Origin: an uncultured bacterium
GTDB lineage: Bacteria > Cyanobacteriota > Vampirovibrionia > Gastranaerophilales > Gastranaerophilaceae
Assembly: GCA_902801985.1 (NCBI GenBank)
Contig: CADCKD010000014.1
Coordinates: 45,525 to 109,524, forward strand
Direction: 5' to 3'
Length of the DNA: 64,000 nucleotides
Both the position numbers and the translations under genes were made by a program. Under the pieces are notes generated by a model. It did not search any database. It was not told the origin of the DNA and worked only from the letters and a program-made list of their open reading frames with translations. This document shows positions 1,820 through 20,004 of this stretch, in pieces; positions within the stretch are counted from its first letter, which is position 1; every line of letters begins with the position of its first letter.

Positions 1820-1848
1820 TTGAAACTCATGTATAATTATGTTATAAT
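1820..1848 (+). promoter_or_regulatory. Sigma-70-type promoter for the pilin/S74 operon
   Basis: TTGAAA at 1820-1825 and a perfect TATAAT at 1843-1848 are separated by 17 bp. Transcription would begin near 1855. That leaves the ATG at 1863 almost leaderless, but places the GGAGG at 1873-1877 inside the transcript, which supports the in-frame TTG at 1884 as the real start of the downstream gene. Confidence 0.6.
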
Positions 1849-1883
1849 AAGAATATATTTTTATGAGGATACGGAGGATGATC

Positions 1884-4163
1884 TTGTCTACAAGGAAAGC
1901 TTTTTCACTAACTGAGTTATTGATTGTTTTGGTTATTGTTGCGGTTCTTTTTATGGCTGCTTTGCCTGTTGTGACAAAAAGAAAAGTAAATAACTATTTG
2001 AATAATGCTGTATGGAATTATGTCGAAGGTGATGACAACCGTAATGCATATTTTCACATAGGAAATGAAGAAGATAAAAAAGATAAGTCTGCTTCTGCGC
2101 TTATTGGGCTCAGTGATGCTGGTAAACATGGAAAGTTGACAGTGTATTCGAACTCCGAAGTTTGCAATAATGGTATTTGCAAGTCTGACAGTGATAAAAC
2201 TATCCAACGTCAAATTCAGTTCAGATACGGACAGGGAAACGGTACTTTTGCCGGGACGCTTTTTGCAGATAAGTACAACATGTTACTTGGCGGGCGTTAT
2301 GATAAATTTCTGAATGATAATTACAAAGATTATTATAATAATACCTCTGATGTGAATAAACAATATTATAACAAATATAATACTGTTTTAGGAATTGATA
2401 CCGCAGAAAATATTGATATGCTCGGTCGATCTGTTATTATTGGTAATAACAGTTTTACAGCTTATAACAATATAGAGGATTTAATCGGTAATACAAATTT
2501 GCTTCCTGAATCTTTCGACAAGGACAAATTTGCTGACTACGTAGAAGCGTATGCGAAGATTAGCAACTTCCAAAACTTGATTGCTATTGGTAATAATGTA
2601 TATTCGCGGGGGTTTGCAAATTTAGGCCTTGGTGAAAATCACGGGAATATTTTTATTGGGCATAATAGCGCAGGGATTTTAAACTCATTGTATGAAGTTA
2701 ACAAAGAAGAATTCGAAGATTCGAACTTTAAAGCCGATGATTACATGAACAAAAATAATACTATTGTCGGTTATAATGCTTTATCTTCCCGTGAAGAAAT
2801 AAAAAGAACTAAATACCAAGATAATGTTATTTTAGGTGCAAATACAGGAGGATATTACAGAGAAACTGGTGACAATTACTCTCCTGGCGGGTGGAATAAA
2901 ATTGCTCGAAATGTAATTATTGGATCTGAATATAAAAGTAATAATGCATCTGATAACGTTATTATAGGGTATGGTGCGTATGATAATAGCAACCTTTCAT
3001 TAGGTGGCGCTTACAAATATGATTCAGATCCGGGCATGAAGTATTTAACCGCAATAGGTTACGGTGCTTGTAATTCCATAGGTATCCCAACAGGTGATGC
3101 TGGTGCAAAGTTCCCTAGAACTTGTATTGGTGTTGGGTCTGCTCAAGTTGTTGGTGAATACTTTGAAGAAGGTTCACCATTTGAAAACGTAAATATTATT
3201 GCAGGCAATTATGCCTATCCTCAAGGGGATGAGCGTATATATATAGGGTCTTATTCCAATGCACGTGACGCAGTATCAGGTAACTCTAAAAGTGATAAAG
3301 GGTTCTTTGCAGGAAGAGCTCCAATAGAGATTCATAATGTACCAGAGTCTGGAGATGAAACTAAAATTGCAATGGGTCCTTCTGTAATATTAAATACTCA
3401 TCTTGTTGTGCGGGGTATGTATTATGATACTGTCGGAAGTCCTAATTATGACAAATCCGATCAAGTTCCGGAAAAAGTAACAGCATATCTTTATTCTTCC
3501 CCAGCTCAAGAAATAGAAGGATTTTATCCTGATCCTGATGAAGACAAAATGTGTGTCTTTAGAAGAAGCGATCGTACTCTAGGAGAGGCTTATGGTCCAT
3601 TCCCTTATAATTCAAATGATTCTGTTCCTTATGCATATTATTGTAATACAGCAACCCCTTTGAAGTTAAAATCGAAAATTTCTAATAATTTGCGTTATTA
3701 TGGCAATGGTATTACTGAAGAATACGCAGTGTCATATACGGACCTTATGGGCAAAAAAGATGAATATTTTCCAATGTTAAAATCATCTGATATAAGATTA
3801 AAAACTAATATTAGTGACAACAATGACGGATTGGATAAATTACTTCAGCTAAAACCATATAATTATACATACAAGGCGGACTTATTAGGTATCCCGCAGG
3901 TTGGTGTTATAGCTCAAGATTTGCAAAAAATCTTTCCTAATTCTGTTACAAAAGGAAAAGATGGGTTCTTAAGAATTCGCTGGGACGAAATGTTTTATGC
4001 AATGATTAATGCTATAAAAACACTTGGTGTAAAAATAGAAAAAATTGCTTCTGATATTTCCGGGTTGGAGATATCTACCTTGCAAATAAAAAATCAACAT
4101 AAGGCACTAAAAAAAGAAATTGTTAATCTTAATGCCAGAGCTGCCAGATTGGAGCGTAAATAA
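1884..4163 (+). CDS. Type IV pilin-like fibre protein with C-terminal S74 intramolecular chaperone
   Basis: A large secreted fibre-like protein of 759 residues from the TTG start (766 if started at ATG 1863). I chose TTG 1884 because GGAGG lies 6 nt upstream and the resulting leader STRKA|FSLTE is a short class III prepilin leader: cleavage after Ala, Phe at +1, Glu at +5, then a hydrophobic helix (LLIVLVIVAVLFMAAL). The central 550 residues contain irregular copies of an x-I-x-G motif (VIIGNNSF, IFIGHNSAG, TIVGYNAL, VIIGYGAYDN, TAIGYGAC), as in trimeric beta-helix or YadA-head-like fibres. The C-terminus carries a peptidase S74 domain with SDIRLK (Ser642 and Lys647 in the ATG 1863 numbering; subtract 7 for the TTG start), GVIAQDLQKIFPNSV and IRWDEMFYAMINAIK, then a coiled-coil tail. 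In phage tail spikes this domain assists trimerisation and cuts itself off at the Ser using the Ser-Lys dyad. The role here is inferred: a surface adhesin or pseudopilin tip. Confidence 0.8.
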   Translation: MSTRKAFSLTELLIVLVIVAVLFMAALPVVTKRKVNNYLNNAVWNYVEGDDNRNAYFHIGNEEDKKDKSASALIGLSDAGKHGKLTVYSNSEVCNNGICKSDSDKTIQRQIQFRYGQGNGTFAGTLFADKYNMLLGGRYDKFLNDNYKDYYNNTSDVNKQYYNKYNTVLGIDTAENIDMLGRSVIIGNNSFTAYNNIEDLIGNTNLLPESFDKDKFADYVEAYAKISNFQNLIAIGNNVYSRGFANLGLGENHGNIFIGHNSAGILNSLYEVNKEEFEDSNFKADDYMNKNNTIVGYNALSSREEIKRTKYQDNVILGANTGGYYRETGDNYSPGGWNKIARNVIIGSEYKSNNASDNVIIGYGAYDNSNLSLGGAYKYDSDPGMKYLTAIGYGACNSIGIPTGDAGAKFPRTCIGVGSAQVVGEYFEEGSPFENVNIIAGNYAYPQGDERIYIGSYSNARDAVSGNSKSDKGFFAGRAPIEIHNVPESGDETKIAMGPSVILNTHLVVRGMYYDTVGSPNYDKSDQVPEKVTAYLYSSPAQEIEGFYPDPDEDKMCVFRRSDRTLGEAYGPFPYNSNDSVPYAYYCNTATPLKLKSKISNNLRYYGNGITEEYAVSYTDLMGKKDEYFPMLKSSDIRLKTNISDNNDGLDKLLQLKPYNYTYKADLLGIPQVGVIAQDLQKIFPNSVTKGKDGFLRIRWDEMFYAMINAIKTLGVKIEKIASDISGLEISTLQIKNQHKALKKEIVNLNARAARLERK

Positions 4164-6355
4164 TGAGAAAAAATGTTATAAAAAAAGCTTTTACCTTGCT
4201 AGAGTTAATGGTCATTATGACTGTTATGACTATACTGCTTGCGGCTTTGTCTCCGATGTTTACAGGAAGAGCAAATCCTTCAAGCGATATTGTATGGCAT
4301 TATGTTCAAGGTGATAGAAGTGATAATGCATATTCAAATCCAATCAATTCTTATCTTAAATCAGGTTTTTATATTGGAATAGCTCCGGATCTTGTTGATA
4401 TGGCATTAATGGATACTGCAAGGGTTACAATTAGACCATCTCAAGTGTTTAACCAACCTCAGATGGAGTTAGGTTATCAAGGTGAAAAAGTTGCTACGAT
4501 TTTCGTAAACCCTGAGAATACATTATTTGGCAGTAGTTTTGAGGATATTATAACTAATGGCAGTACAAAACCCCTAAATAATAATAATGCTTATGGTAAT
4601 ACTGCCTATGGTATAGATGCGCTAAAATCAATAAAAAAAGCAAAAAGAAATACTGCAATAGGGTATGGTTCTGCTAGTGAGATAAAGGATCAGACTGATA
4701 ATACTATTATCGGAACGTGGAATTCTCCTTTGGTAATGGAAGATAGTTCGAATATGAATACTATCATTGGTAATTTTAGCGATAAAGACATACATATTGG
4801 TAGTGAAAATACAATTGTTGGAGACAATGATGGTGTAGAATCTGGTACAGATAATAAACAGAATACTTTAATTGGTAAAAATGCTGCTCCTAAGTTAAAT
4901 GCGATGAATAATACAATAATCGGTTCTTATGCCGCGCCAAATTTGACAACCGGAACCGGTAATACAATTATTGGTTCAGCGTCGTATAAAGATGCTGATG
5001 GAATAACTCATTACAGGCCATTGTCAAAAGGTAAAAACAATACATTGATAGGTGTAAATTCAGGTTTTGGTTTGGGTCCTGAAGCGGAAAATAAAACCTG
5101 TATCGGTTATGGTTCATGTCCAAAGATTGAGGGATCTGATTATGATAAATTAGGACTTTTAAATGATAAAGTCACTCGTGTTTTTATCGGCGGTCCCCCA
5201 AGACATGCAGATGCTTCTCAGGATTTCGGTGGTTATGCAGTTCTTGAGGTACATAATTCTCCAAATAAACATGCGTTAAGGCACGCTCTTGTTGGTGATA
5301 ATATAAAAGCTTACGATAGAAATAGTTTTATAATTAATAACGGCAAAGGGGACGAATCTGTTATTATAAATGGGAATTTGATTGTACGTGGTCAAACATA
5401 TTTGGGCGGTGTTCCTTCAGTGATTTTCCCCGATTATAATAGTAATCCTACAGCCTCAAATGCTAATAATAGCATGCCTTTATATGGTATGTCGTATGAT
5501 TGGGTCGGAACAGGTGAAAAATCAAAAGTTTTTTATGCAAAAGACGGTAACAAAATTGCTGATAGTGTATATGCTTCAAAAAAAGTCGGCGGGTATTCCC
5601 CATATTTAAATACTCCTGATAGTGGTGCTATACGGAGATCCACATATTACCATAAAGTTCATTGTACTTGTGCTCCGGAGCATACTTCGTATGATTGGTC
5701 TTCGGTTAAGTCAGCTGGTGGATATTCTGTTGCAGACATTATAAAATATCGTTCAGTTGATAATCCCAATCATTATAAAACTGTAAGAAATTTAATATAC
5801 TCTGATGAAAAAGGCTATACCGATGAATCTATAGGTGGTACTGGTATAGTGAAGTATAATACGAGTCTTTTGCTTGATAGTGTTGAGAGGGACTTGTATA
5901 CATATAATTTTGCGCATATCGGTAATCAAAATGGTTCATGTTGTCCATATTTGTATACATATAAGTCTACAACTTCTGATGCAAGATTAAAAAATATTGG
6001 CAAAGAGTTTACTGATGGTTTGGATAAGATAAAACAATTAAAAGTATTTAATTATACATTCAAATCTGACCCGAATAAGACTCATAATGTTGGTGTTATT
6101 GCGCAAGATTTGAAAAAAGTATTTCCAAACGCCGTATTTAAAGGTAAAGACGGATATTATTCTATTCGTTGGGATGAAATGTTCTATGCCGCAATTAATG
6201 CTGTTAAAGAAATAAATTCTCGAGTTGAAACTCTTGCAAATAGGGTTAATAAAGATATTGAAAGAGTAAAGGCCTTAAAAGCTGAAAATGCTCAACTGGC
6301 AAAGAAATTAGAAGAATTGGCAATTGAGCTGACTGCGCTTGAGAATAAAAAATAA
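4163..6355 (+). CDS. Second type IV pilin-like fibre protein with C-terminal S74 chaperone
   Basis: A 730-residue paralogue of the preceding gene and translationally coupled to it: the stop and start overlap as TAATG, with GGAGCG upstream. The prepilin leader is MRKNVIKKA|FTLLE, with cleavage predicted after Ala9, Glu14 at the conserved +5 position, and a hydrophobic helix to about residue 30. From about residue 145 to 330 there are regularly spaced NTxIG units (NTAIGYGSA, NTIIGTWN, NTIIGNFS, NTIVGDND, NTLIGKNA, NTIIGSYAA, NTLIGVNSG). The S74 domain begins at SDARLK (Ser605, Lys610), followed by GVIAQDLKKVFPNAV and IRWDEMFYAAINAVK, then a heptad-like tail (about 640-730). The Ser-Lys pair is spaced as in the upstream protein. 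The function is inferred as a partner fibre subunit, probably displayed by the type IV pilus or type II secretion machinery, whose genes are not in this window. Confidence 0.8.
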   Translation: MRKNVIKKAFTLLELMVIMTVMTILLAALSPMFTGRANPSSDIVWHYVQGDRSDNAYSNPINSYLKSGFYIGIAPDLVDMALMDTARVTIRPSQVFNQPQMELGYQGEKVATIFVNPENTLFGSSFEDIITNGSTKPLNNNNAYGNTAYGIDALKSIKKAKRNTAIGYGSASEIKDQTDNTIIGTWNSPLVMEDSSNMNTIIGNFSDKDIHIGSENTIVGDNDGVESGTDNKQNTLIGKNAAPKLNAMNNTIIGSYAAPNLTTGTGNTIIGSASYKDADGITHYRPLSKGKNNTLIGVNSGFGLGPEAENKTCIGYGSCPKIEGSDYDKLGLLNDKVTRVFIGGPPRHADASQDFGGYAVLEVHNSPNKHALRHALVGDNIKAYDRNSFIINNGKGDESVIINGNLIVRGQTYLGGVPSVIFPDYNSNPTASNANNSMPLYGMSYDWVGTGEKSKVFYAKDGNKIADSVYASKKVGGYSPYLNTPDSGAIRRSTYYHKVHCTCAPEHTSYDWSSVKSAGGYSVADIIKYRSVDNPNHYKTVRNLIYSDEKGYTDESIGGTGIVKYNTSLLLDSVERDLYTYNFAHIGNQNGSCCPYLYTYKSTTSDARLKNIGKEFTDGLDKIKQLKVFNYTFKSDPNKTHNVGVIAQDLKKVFPNAVFKGKDGYYSIRWDEMFYAAINAVKEINSRVETLANRVNKDIERVKALKAENAQLAKKLEELAIELTALENKK

Positions 6356-6371
6356 TTAATAATTAAAATAT

Positions 6372-6405
6372 AAAAAGTCCTCTTCAAAAAAGAGGACTTT
6401 TTTTG
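6372..6405 (+). terminator. Rho-independent terminator of the pilin/S74 operon
   Basis: AGTCCTCTT and AAGAGGACT form a 9-bp stem around a CAAAA loop, extended by A/T pairs and followed by a run of seven T, starting 20 bp after the second gene's stop. Confidence 0.9.
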
Positions 6406-6511: not shown

Positions 6512-8569
6512 ATGGGATTGGCTGCATCACAAGCGAGATTATTAACCATTACTGCAAGACTTGCAGATAATGAATTACGCTCTCAAACCATTAATAATGC
6601 TAAGATGCGTTTGGCTACTCAAAGTGCCCAAGCAAGCGAAAAGTATGTTAATGCTTTGAACCAATCTGATATGATGTTTCAAAATACAATGCTTGACGGT
6701 ACATCTCAAAATCAACTTTTAACTTTCAATTCTCTAACCGCTTACAGCCCGTATAATACACAATATGGACTTGTAAATGCTGCAGGTTTAGCATTAGTAA
6801 GTGAAGCTGATGCGAATATGTTTGTTGCTTCAGGCGGTAATTGTGAAAAATTCTTAAAATTACACGGTCTTGAATGGCAATCAACATACTTTGATCATGT
6901 CAATAAAGATGAATTAAAGGCTGCTTTGGGAGATGACTATGGTGCTATATATGATAGCATTACGGCTAATGATTATAAGAGATATAGCCCGCAGCCGACT
7001 GATTTAGTCAGCTATTTAAGAGCGATATACGAACATTATGATGCATACGAAGGCTCTTTAGAATATGCAACATTCAGAACTGCTAGTCAAGGCTTTTTAT
7101 CTGAGTTGAAGTCTTCTTCTACCAGATATGAAACCTGGATTTTAGGTGCGCACGAGGATGAAAATGGCGGCAGACTTTCTACTGCGACTGTTATAAATAA
7201 TATTTTAGATAATTTTAAATATAATGCAAACCCAAACTATTGTACTCAGGTAAGTAGTCTGTCTGATAACGGAGCTGATGCAAAAAGAAAGGCTTTTCTT
7301 GCTTCTACTAATGATGAATGGACAGACTTATCTAAAGAATTTTTTGCCTATATATTGTTAAATGTTTCTGATGATTTTATAAATTACTGGCAGAACGACA
7401 ATTTAGCCGGTGTTATTAAAGGTATTTTAGGGTTAAATAATATGGAAATTGCTTCTTCGAATAATTATTATTATTTGAATGGTGATCAAAGAAACTCTGT
7501 ATTTACGATTTCTGATACTGATTTAACATATAATTTTCCCCCTGAAGATGGGGAATCTCCGAAATCTATAACATTTGTAAAAGACGGAGATGAGTATAAA
7601 ATAAACTCTTGTGTTGGTTTAACAAAATCTGAAGATGGCAAATATGCTTATATAGATGATGGTGATAACAGGGAGATATACACAATATCTAATAACCTCT
7701 TGATTGCATCATATGGCTATAAAGATGCAATGGAAGCATACTCTGATGCATTGGGTTCAATGTTGTATGGTTTAATAAATTGCCCTACTGTTTATATGAG
7801 CTGGAATGCTCGTTCAGGTTCATACATGAATGATCTATTGAGTGTTGTTTTTGGCGAACCTGAAAATGGTAATCCTTGGGAAAATATAAATAAATTCGCC
7901 GATTTATTAGGTGTTTCTGATTTCGATCGAACTTCGGACGAGAAGCTTTCTACTGTATTCATGAATATGCGTAAATTAGCTGATATAGAAGAAATGATGA
8001 AACTTTTCTATAATGCGGAGGGCTCTCTTAAAAATAGCGCGATTACTCCTTCCAAAGAATTCAAAAACTTAATGGACATGTACAGAGTTGATGCGTTGGT
8101 ATTTCTCTATGGCGAGCCAAAATACGCTTGGGTTGATACTAAAGATACCGGGAATACAGGTAATCCTGACACTAAAGCTCAATGGCTTACTAATTTGTTC
8201 GAAAGAATGAAAAAAGGTTATAGAGTATTAGAAGACGGTCTAGCTTCTTCTAATGATTGGATTGAGTATGCTCTTCAAAGCGGTTTAGTTACTTTAGAAC
8301 AAGTAGATTCAAGCAACAGATGGATTAATATCGATTATAAAACTTGCGCTGGCATTACAGAACAAACTGACCGTTCTGCTGCTGTTGCAAAAGCTGAAGC
8401 TGAATATAATCGTGCGATGAACGATATTAAACAAAAAGATAGTATTTTTGACCTTCAATTGAAAAATATCGATACAGAACACGCTTCACTTCAACAAGAG
8501 TATGATTCTATACAAAAAGTTATCAATAAAAATATTGAACGTACTATGAAGTTTGACCAAAACGGCTAA
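6512..8569 (+). CDS. MGxxASQAR-family protein, flagellin-like layout, unknown function
   Basis: 685 residues. The first 65 residues (MGLAASQARLLTITARLADN...) and the last 65 (from about AAVAKAEAEYNRAMNDIK to the C-terminus) are charged, Ala-rich and predicted helical coiled coils, while the middle 540 residues are acidic and irregular. The same end motifs occur in the protein at 18961-20004, whose middle is unrelated and much shorter. Conserved helical ends around a variable centre is the plan of flagellins and hook-type proteins, but I see no diagnostic flagellin motif and no signal peptide. It is probably a secreted or surface structural protein of the lineage; this is inference. An AAAGGAT at 6493-6499 lies 13 nt before the ATG. 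It stands alone between a terminator and a repeat array. Confidence 0.65.
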   Translation: MGLAASQARLLTITARLADNELRSQTINNAKMRLATQSAQASEKYVNALNQSDMMFQNTMLDGTSQNQLLTFNSLTAYSPYNTQYGLVNAAGLALVSEADANMFVASGGNCEKFLKLHGLEWQSTYFDHVNKDELKAALGDDYGAIYDSITANDYKRYSPQPTDLVSYLRAIYEHYDAYEGSLEYATFRTASQGFLSELKSSSTRYETWILGAHEDENGGRLSTATVINNILDNFKYNANPNYCTQVSSLSDNGADAKRKAFLASTNDEWTDLSKEFFAYILLNVSDDFINYWQNDNLAGVIKGILGLNNMEIASSNNYYYLNGDQRNSVFTISDTDLTYNFPPEDGESPKSITFVKDGDEYKINSCVGLTKSEDGKYAYIDDGDNREIYTISNNLLIASYGYKDAMEAYSDALGSMLYGLINCPTVYMSWNARSGSYMNDLLSVVFGEPENGNPWENINKFADLLGVSDFDRTSDEKLSTVFMNMRKLADIEEMMKLFYNAEGSLKNSAITPSKEFKNLMDMYRVDALVFLYGEPKYAWVDTKDTGNTGNPDTKAQWLTNLFERMKKGYRVLEDGLASSNDWIEYALQSGLVTLEQVDSSNRWINIDYKTCAGITEQTDRSAAVAKAEAEYNRAMNDIKQKDSIFDLQLKNIDTEHASLQQEYDSIQKVINKNIERTMKFDQNG

Positions 8570-18960: not shown

Positions 18961-20004
18961 TTATGCGTTAAATGTTTTGAATGAAGATTCAACGTTTTTC
19001 TGGATAACTTTTTTAACTGCTTCCATTTCTGTATTTATTGCGTTTTCTTCAGTATCTAATTGTTTTAATTTTAATTCTAAGTTTTTATCTTGTACTTGAA
19101 TAATTTCAATTTTAGCGTTTACTTCTTGAATTTTCTTGTCATATTGTGCTTTATCAAAGTAGTATTTGTTCATTGCGTCGTTGTATGCAGCATCATCAGC
19201 AGTAGTTTTTGCTGTTAATTTGTATGTGATACCGTCTTCATTCTTTTCACAATCATCTTGAGAGTTGTAAATGATAATTGTTGTATATCTGCCTGATGTA
19301 TCTTGCTCAACTCTTGCATATTTGTTACGAATATCTTTTGTTACAGTTCCTTGACCGTATACATATGATTTGATGCCAGATGTTGACATATTATTGTCTG
19401 TATAATTTGCTGCTTCAATTTCTTTTTGGTTGTAAAATACTGGATAGTATGAACCATTCCCGTCTTTTTGATATCTAACAAGCCAATTAGTTGTATTACC
19501 GTATTTATTATGCAATATCTCTAAATATTTTGATTCTAGTGCTATTGCATCCTCATAATCCCCCTCGTTTAATGTTGATAAATAAGGATCTTTTTCTCTT
19601 CTGTCAGGAGTGTTACTCGTGAGATTATATAATGTTGTTGCACCTATGGCATATGTATAATTTGGAGCATCACCATTCCTTGTAACAATTACATTTCCGT
19701 TGGCATTGATTGTTTCACCAACTGTTTCTTGAAGATAGTTCATCAAGTATATACCCCCAGGTTGTGCGATTAGGGATGTAATAGTATTATTTTCTGTACC
19801 ATCTTCAAATGAATATGTAATCTTACAATAATCTGATGATGAAGGTGGGGTAGGTACAGTCATTGATGCCAACTGACTGTAATAGTTAGCTGATTCGTTG
19901 GACAAAGTTGTTCTTTGTTGGTTAATCTGTTGTCCTTCATATTCTGTATTAGTTTTACGAGCGGTTAAGCTTAAAAATCTTGCTTGTGATGCACTCATTC
20001 CCAT
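18961..20004 (-). CDS. MGxxASQAR-family protein, short form, unknown function
   Basis: 347 residues. It begins MGMSASQARFLSLTARKTNT and ends with a coiled coil from about residue 275 (DAMNKYYFDKAQYDKKIQEV through MEAVKKVIQKNVESSF), both matching the ends of the 685-residue protein at 6512-8569 (there VINKNIERTMKF). The middle (about 60-265) is an unrelated, Asn/Tyr/Thr-rich segment with no motif I recognise. There is no signal peptide or membrane helix. The ribosome binding site AAAGGAC lies before the ATG at 20004. The conserved ends suggest self-assembly like flagellin D0 helices; this is inference. It stands alone between copies of a 110-bp repeat. Confidence 0.65.
   Translation of the reverse strand: MGMSASQARFLSLTARKTNTEYEGQQINQQRTTLSNESANYYSQLASMTVPTPPSSSDYCKITYSFEDGTENNTITSLIAQPGGIYLMNYLQETVGETINANGNVIVTRNGDAPNYTYAIGATTLYNLTSNTPDRREKDPYLSTLNEGDYEDAIALESKYLEILHNKYGNTTNWLVRYQKDGNGSYYPVFYNQKEIEAANYTDNNMSTSGIKSYVYGQGTVTKDIRNKYARVEQDTSGRYTTIIIYNSQDDCEKNEDGITYKLTAKTTADDAAYNDAMNKYYFDKAQYDKKIQEVNAKIEIIQVQDKNLELKLKQLDTEENAINTEMEAVKKVIQKNVESSFKTFNA

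Follow-up and report, generated by a model that had tools for sequence, protein, structure and literature searches.

Modular type IV pilins carry grafted adhesive domains (PMC8179133, PMC10191384). In the 2021 survey by Raynaud et al. (PMC8179133), the combination of a prepilin signature with an S74 signature (IPR012902-IPR030392) is one of the 15 commonest architectures of modular pilins, and a peptidase activity is proposed for it. Those S74 domains that have been characterized act as intramolecular chaperones, gathering three chains and then excising themselves from their own chain by means of a Ser-Lys pair (PMC10769870). In the Bdellovibrio fibre Bd3182, which is about 40 Å wide, S74 autocleavage is abolished by the mutation S782A (PMC10769870). 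TcpB and CofB are large minor pilins that are trimeric at the pilus tip (PMC9565799). Our literature searches for IPR030392 returned only Raynaud et al. and phage papers, and no description of such pili in Gastranaerophilales came up when the order was searched together with pilin or adhesin.

The window, i.e., the whole stretch of 64,000 nucleotides analyzed here, lies on contig C14 of a 2.1 Mb genome (G000, 99.9% complete). Its source is an uncultured bacterium of the gut that is related to cyanobacteria but not photosynthetic. The S74 proteins of this genome match contigs named Candidatus Gastranaerophilales or Melainabacteria.

Architecture of genes A and B

The sequence-only reading had proposed a three-part build for two adjacent genes of the window, here called A and B: a prepilin leader, then a repeat body, and S74 at the C-terminus. 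Our analysis confirmed this build, since leader and repeat body are present in each gene and the C-terminal S74 domain has a strong Pfam score in both. The features are as follows (residues of A are counted from the ATG at 1863).

1820..1848, plus strand: sigma-70-like promoter by consensus, TTGAAA-17-TATAAT with an extended -10 (TG before the -10), matching 11 of 12 consensus positions
1884..4163, plus strand: gene A (leader, repeats, S74), 766 aa if begun at ATG 1863 (1863-4163); orthologue clade A in the genus, support 100/94
1884..1901, plus strand: leader peptide of A, MSTRKA, with the cut predicted before F14; E18 is the +5 Glu
2343..3152, plus strand: repeat body of A, x-[IV]-[IL]-G motifs
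3423..3776, plus strand: hypervariable distal domain of A, residues 521-638, with Cys564 and Cys594
3786..3947, plus strand: S74 domain of A, with Ser642 (3786-3788) and Lys647 (3801-3803)
3981..4157, plus strand: C-terminal helix of A (coiled coil), residues 707-765 in the model; it would leave with S74
4163..6355, plus strand: gene B (leader, repeats, S74), 730 aa; orthologue clade B, support 99/94
4163..4189, plus strand: leader peptide of B, MRKNVIKKA, with the cut predicted before F10; E14 is the +5 Glu
4583..5197, plus strand: repeat body of B, NTxIG with a period of about 17
5399..5965, plus strand: hypervariable distal domain of B, residues 413-601, with Cys501, Cys503, Cys593, and Cys594
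5975..6136, plus strand: S74 domain of B, with Ser605 (5975-5977) and Lys610 (5990-5992)
6170..6349, plus strand: C-terminal helix of B (coiled coil), residues 670-729 in the model
6372..6402, no strand assigned: terminator-like hairpin of 14 pairs, flanked on either strand by U/A-rich sequence, which the tool placed on the minus strand; the frequency of terminator matches is not above that in shuffled sequences

The stop codon of A and the start codon of B share one base (TAATG; 4163 belongs to both ORFs), in agreement with the overlap described earlier. TTG 1884, which lies 6 nt 3' of GGAGG, is a likelier start of A than ATG 1863.

The S74 profile (PF13884, cut-off 22 bits) matched A at residues 642-695 with 59.5 bits (E = 4e-16) and B at residues 605-658 with 57.6 bits (E = 1.5e-15), both E-values being far below 1e-3, and a C-terminal match above the curated cut-off is a mark of the peptidase S74/intramolecular chaperone group. 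The Ser and Lys that had been singled out, five residues apart in SDIRLK of A and SDARLK of B, occupy invariant columns among the relatives, and Ser-x4-Lys is kept in all 79 S74 ORFs of the window's family (three of these were missed by the script, and their SDxxxK was seen on inspection by eye). Whole-protein phmmer comparison of A with the PDB was uninformative, whereas profile searches were informative: the S74 profile aligned with MyRF in its autocleaving chaperone domain (7dc3, 6e-11) and with three phage chains, namely a putative tail fibre (8jov), the tip of a long tail fibre (6f45), and a neck appendage (3gud), and the motif was in register.

Alternatively, the S74 domain could be a peptidase with other proteins as its substrates, in which case the pili would carry an enzyme; this is how the 2021 survey reads the prepilin-S74 combination. 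The name and annotation of the domain and the peptidase activity given there (PMC8179133) are in line with this, but the S74 domains characterized so far act on their own chain (PMC10769870), the coiled coil and the C-terminal position of S74 match those of phage fibres, and the most variable part of A and B is the domain that would remain after the cut. We regard an enzyme-bearing pilus as very improbable.

NTxIG-type motifs occur 8 times in A and 11 times in B, as compared with 0.41 and 0.47 expected by chance (maximum 3 and 4 in 2000 shuffles), i.e., an enrichment of about 20 times, and those of B are mostly 16-19 residues apart. The repeats of A and B themselves reached no Pfam family. The repeats of relatives match YadA_head, down to 3e-20, and several relatives carry N_methyl, YadA_head, and S74 in one chain, all above cut-off. 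A domain that is not particular to pilus biology is found on the same chain as the leader, being PF13884 in A and B and also YadA_head in relatives.

Comparison with 11-12 genus-level orthologues revealed a marked difference in conservation along the chain. The mean identity of the distal domain was 15% in A (11 orthologues) and 22% in B (12 orthologues), as against 61% and 63%, respectively, in S74. The leader and helix showed 68% identity in A and 54% in B, the N-cap and repeats 30-35%, and the coiled coil 44% in A and 58% in B. In these alignments, conserved ends enclose a variable distal domain, a pattern that is seen in receptor-binding fibres. What would stay at the fibre end is the most variable part, and the conserved S74 domain would be shed if it works as in its relatives.

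AlphaFold2 monomer models, built from alignments of 28 and 34 rows, were poor (mean pLDDT 54.6 and 52.4), and Foldseek found no match for them in the PDB at E <= 0.001. The model of B showed regular strands in the repeat body (pLDDT mostly about 60-80), and the C-terminal helices were modelled with a pLDDT of about 62-81 in A and 60-82 in B. At the N-terminus, the low-confidence models contain a helix of only about 18-22 residues and no canonical pilin head. Because of this short modelled helix and the lack of a visible head, A and B may not pack like a pilin.

Prepilin leader, pilus machinery, and a proposed mechanism

The leaders read MSTRKA/FSLTE in A (from TTG 1884) and MRKNVIKKA/FTLLE in B, the slash marking the predicted cut. 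In a single-protein scan, the N_methyl scores of A and B (20.8 and 21.8 bits) straddled the cut-off of 21.2 bits; in the genome scan, both exceeded it (26.2 and 26.1 bits). With the +5 Glu invariant in both genes, the results showed that the proposed prepilin leaders are recognized as such. The outcomes that would have refuted the sequence-only reading, namely no S74 match at E below 1e-3, loss of the Ser-Lys pair in most orthologues, and unrecognized leaders, did not occur. A class III (prepilin) signal with a +5 Glu is a mark of modular type IV pilins, and it is present in both proteins. The style of the leader, KKxA/F[ST]LxE, is common to many of the 23 prepilin-type genes of the source genome.

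Two observations on leaders elsewhere may be added. Upstream of the window on the same contig, an ORF (L063:5968-8667) encodes an 899-aa protein with the prepilin leader GFTVAE, devoid of S74 or any other strong Pfam domain, which is another large modular pilin. In some S74-pilin copies (L084:315-3374, L095:2272-4521, and L110:4569-6629), about 110-210 in-frame codons lie between the apparent ribosome-binding site and the leader; these expansions are made of dispersed repeats (VILNLFQDL, HPELVSGS) that recur in many other loci.

A stretch of 4 kb in the source genome (C4:41.0-44.9 kb) encodes its only secretin together with a PilB-type ATPase and a PilC-type platform protein; PilT-type ATPases and one A24 prepilin peptidase are also encoded in the genome. 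Among the family genomes that are at least 90% complete, a secretin was found in 50 of the 50 that bear S74. The four secretin-less genomes of this completeness are all without S74; they represent two genera only, and a joint loss of secretin and S74 was set aside on that account. The A24 peptidase gave no match in three fairly complete S74-bearing genomes (G003, G008, and G051), and the model scores weakly in this clade.

We searched the surroundings of A and B for pilus genes and found none. This would suit a reading in which the leader is a membrane anchor or export signal only, so that a trimeric S74 fibre never enters a pilus but is either released or kept at the inner membrane by its anchor, and works as a cell-surface or periplasmic fibre like the mosaic adhesive trimeric (MAT) proteins of Bdellovibrio. 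The short helix and the headless models would fit it as well, and MAT fibres do reach the surface with an ordinary signal peptide (PMC10769870). Arguing in the other direction, the leader is universal in intact members (see below), although any signal peptide would do for export, and in a diderm an anchor in the inner membrane alone would leave the fibre unexposed. The invariance of the +5 Glu also speaks against a mere anchor; this residue matters for filament assembly, not for membrane anchoring. Taken together, a leader that serves for anchoring or export only seems to us rather unlikely.

The explanation that we favour, and consider probable, is that A and B are modular minor pilins with a grafted phage-type trimeric fibre, located at the tip of a pilus or pseudopilus, matured by S74, and binding a target. 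The pilus-tip fibre of the sequence-only reading is thus the best reading here, too. The mechanism that we infer would have five steps. (i) The prepilin would enter the inner membrane so that its body faces the periplasm, and its leader of about 6-9 residues would be cut off before Phe by the prepilin peptidase. (ii) Three chains would join via the S74 chaperone and the coiled coil and wind their repeats into a trimeric beta fibre, as the S74 domain and the homology to YadA_head suggest. (iii) The folded chains would cut themselves just before Ser (residue 642 of A and 605 of B) by the Ser-Lys pair, as has been proven for other S74 proteins, so that about 125 residues would be shed in the periplasm and the distal domain exposed. 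(iv) The three short N-terminal helices would cap the pilus or pseudopilus, and the fibre would be pushed through the secretin. (v) The hypervariable distal domain would bind a target, e.g., host mucus, another cell, or a food fibre; that it binds a target at all is suggested by its variability.

Distribution of the fusion and sets of three paralogues

S74 was found in 59 of the 117 genomes of the window's family, representing 23 of 41 genera. The 79 family S74 ORFs came from 60 loci plus the window; in nine of them the 5' part is lost at the end of a contig, and a further one encodes a protein of another, phage-like kind. The leader is present in all remaining 69 (69/69). In two sister families of the order (L142 and L143), each with three S74 genes in a row, the leader is present in 6/6 S74 ORFs. 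A profile search of the GTDB collection gave 78 loci on contigs with Gastranaerophilales-type names, where 86 of 89 uncut S74 ORFs have it, and the three leaderless ones start mid-body, as broken genes would. The leader was absent from 84 of 84 uncut viral S74 ORFs and from all 11 S74 ORFs of other members of the phylum. The survey of this order that had been proposed thus revealed the fusion order-wide, and the fusion of leader and S74 is a fixed feature of the order.

The phage-like protein (L117:2470-3282; 270 aa, S74 domain, no leader) resembles the DNA pilot protein of small single-stranded DNA phages and is probably a prophage S74 protein in the same clade.

These data bear on whether A and B are remnants or captures of prophage tail fibre genes that play no part in a pilus. 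The matches of the S74 part in PHROG are almost all tail fibres, and there are genomes with many copies, often at contig ends, both of which would fit such an origin. Against it, three copies are kept in almost the whole genus, viral S74 ORFs lack the leader, no phage genes are recognizable around A and B, and even the best matches in phages extend over no more than 23% of the protein, with 28-39% identity. The order-wide conservation of the fusion largely refutes this explanation, which we judge the least probable of all those considered. An origin from a prophage in place was ruled out by the same absence of recognizable phage genes nearby and the limited phage matches. Carriage on a plasmid was rejected as well, only distant S74-domain matches having been found.

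The source genome has exactly three S74 genes over the cut-off. The third one, C (L064:11409-13583, minus strand), also has the leader and the dyad. In the genus sample, which comprised the window genome and 16 S74-bearing relatives, nearly all have exactly three S74 genes (three have four); one further genome is without S74. The gene order in the genus relatives (L065) is an MFS gene, A, B, a small gene, metK, C (convergent), valS, and a gene whose product starts with MGLAASQAR (the names metK and valS are by-eye readings of the sequence), so that C lies one or two genes away from the A-B pair. The window genome does not keep this block intact. The break lies just downstream of B (6355/6512), where the MGLAASQAR gene comes next, and metK, C, and valS are on contig C23. 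Compared with L065, the window genome has thus been rearranged just downstream of B.

The MGLAASQAR gene belongs to a family of 317-711 aa proteins starting with MG[LM][AS]ASQARxLxxTAR, found near S74 genes and elsewhere in these genomes. Copies are at 6512-8569 and 18961-20004 (minus strand) of the window, L065:16820-18955, and L071:13271-14224, and the two window proteins have no Pfam match.

Tandem operons of three S74 genes occur in genera g25 (four genomes) and g28 and in families f2 and f3, and no tandem arrays of two or four overlapping or abutting S74 genes were seen except the A-B pair of the window's genus. Other lineages have a single S74-pilin copy. The sequence-only reading had described a coupled two-gene system; this part did not hold, because the genome has a third paralogue elsewhere and the relatives keep sets of three.

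A tree built from the leader and S74 groups the paralogues by lineage (support 96/86 for the window's genus, g1; 100/97 for g25; 100/99 for g28; 99/95 for f3; and 93/80 for f2), and within g1 each of the clades A, B, and C is kept across genomes. A single ancestral triplet for g1 and g25 was rejected for the grouping of A of g1 with gene 1 of g25 (AU p 0.0014). Position-by-position orthology of the f2 and f3 triplets was compatible with the data (p 0.11-0.22). Given these two results, either the set of three would have arisen several times, or gene conversion would homogenize the domains within each lineage.

Some genomes (G020, G161, and G328) have as many as 11-12 S74-pilin copies scattered over them, often near the ends of contigs; the fibre genes may thus have been duplicated recently or be mobile.

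Since S74 domains work as trimers and the genes come in sets of three, an obvious hypothesis is that A, B, and C (or genes 1-2-3 of the operons) form an obligate heterotrimer, in which three prepilins would co-fold via S74 into one fibre with three faces and cap the pilus. Three-chain sets would then have arisen separately in several lineages from single-copy homotrimers. The GspI-J-K trio, which caps the type II secretion pseudopilus, offers a model for such a cap. The other possibility within the favoured pilus-tip explanation is that A, B, and C are separate homotrimers with three different targets, i.e., a repertoire and not a complex. In the single-copy lineages, any trimer must be a homotrimer, so homotrimers are possible, and the distal domains differ between paralogues; a repertoire does not, however, require that sets of exactly three recur in several lineages. 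We consider the repertoire an evenly balanced proposition and the heterotrimer a doubtful one. With the sets of three, it can be tested directly whether S74 domains are able to assemble heterotrimers.

Comparison with known systems

Phage S74 tail spikes and fibres (K1F endosialidase, T5 fibre) and the myelin regulatory factor MyRF share with A and B the S74 Ser-x4-Lys and the coiled coil that follows it. Unlike A and B, the phage proteins have no prepilin leader and are assembled in the cytoplasm on the virion, and MyRF is a eukaryotic membrane-bound transcription factor that likewise has no such leader. YadA-type trimeric autotransporters have YadA_head repeats in common with several relatives of A and B, but A and B gave no match to their C-terminal outer-membrane anchor domain; the C-terminus consists of S74 and the coiled coil, and the N-terminus has the prepilin leader.

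TcpB and CofB (PMC9565799) resemble A and B, as read here, in their large size for minor pilins, in their trimeric state at the pilus tip, and in binding a ligand at that place. They differ in being type IVb homotrimers with beta-repeat and H-type-lectin-like domains and without S74; A and B showed no Pfam or solved-structure match to these domains. The MAT fibres of Bdellovibrio bacteriovorus (PMC10769870) are also bacterial and not phage-borne, have many paralogues, carry a C-terminal S74 domain with SDxxxK in 13 of 21 cases, and have a variable adhesive region at the fibre tip. Their N-terminus differs: they have a signal peptide and a conserved beta-rich N-terminal domain of about 130 aa, and no pilin leader is described for them, whereas in A and B a prepilin leader takes the place of the ordinary MAT-type signal peptide.

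Modular type IV pilins are like A and B in having both InterPro signatures on one chain, a non-pilus module on a prepilin N-terminus, and an expected place at the tip (PMC8179133). The small pilin head of Streptococcus sanguinis PilB is not seen in the low-confidence models of A and B. The parts of A and B had been called ones not normally seen together. The three-part build itself stands, but the pairing of leader and S74 is not unprecedented, since Raynaud et al. list it (PMC8179133). Beyond what is described there, A and B have a variable distal domain, and their relatives have YadA-type repeats. As far as the literature that we found goes, four points are new: that S74 is read as a trimeric-fibre chaperone, that the fusion is fixed throughout the order, that the distal domain is variable, and that sets of exactly three recur.

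If the favoured reading is true, a phage-type fibre whose chaperone removes itself has become a fixed part of the pilus machinery in one order of uncultured gut bacteria, and pilus tips would be made there in a novel manner. The hypervariable domain exposed after the predicted cut would be a candidate for attachment in the animal gut, a subject on which we found no literature. In the survey, IPR012902-IPR030392 is a database count read as a peptidase (PMC8179133); here, S74 would be the self-removing chaperone of a trimeric fibre, and the peptidase label of a common modular-pilin architecture would be corrected.
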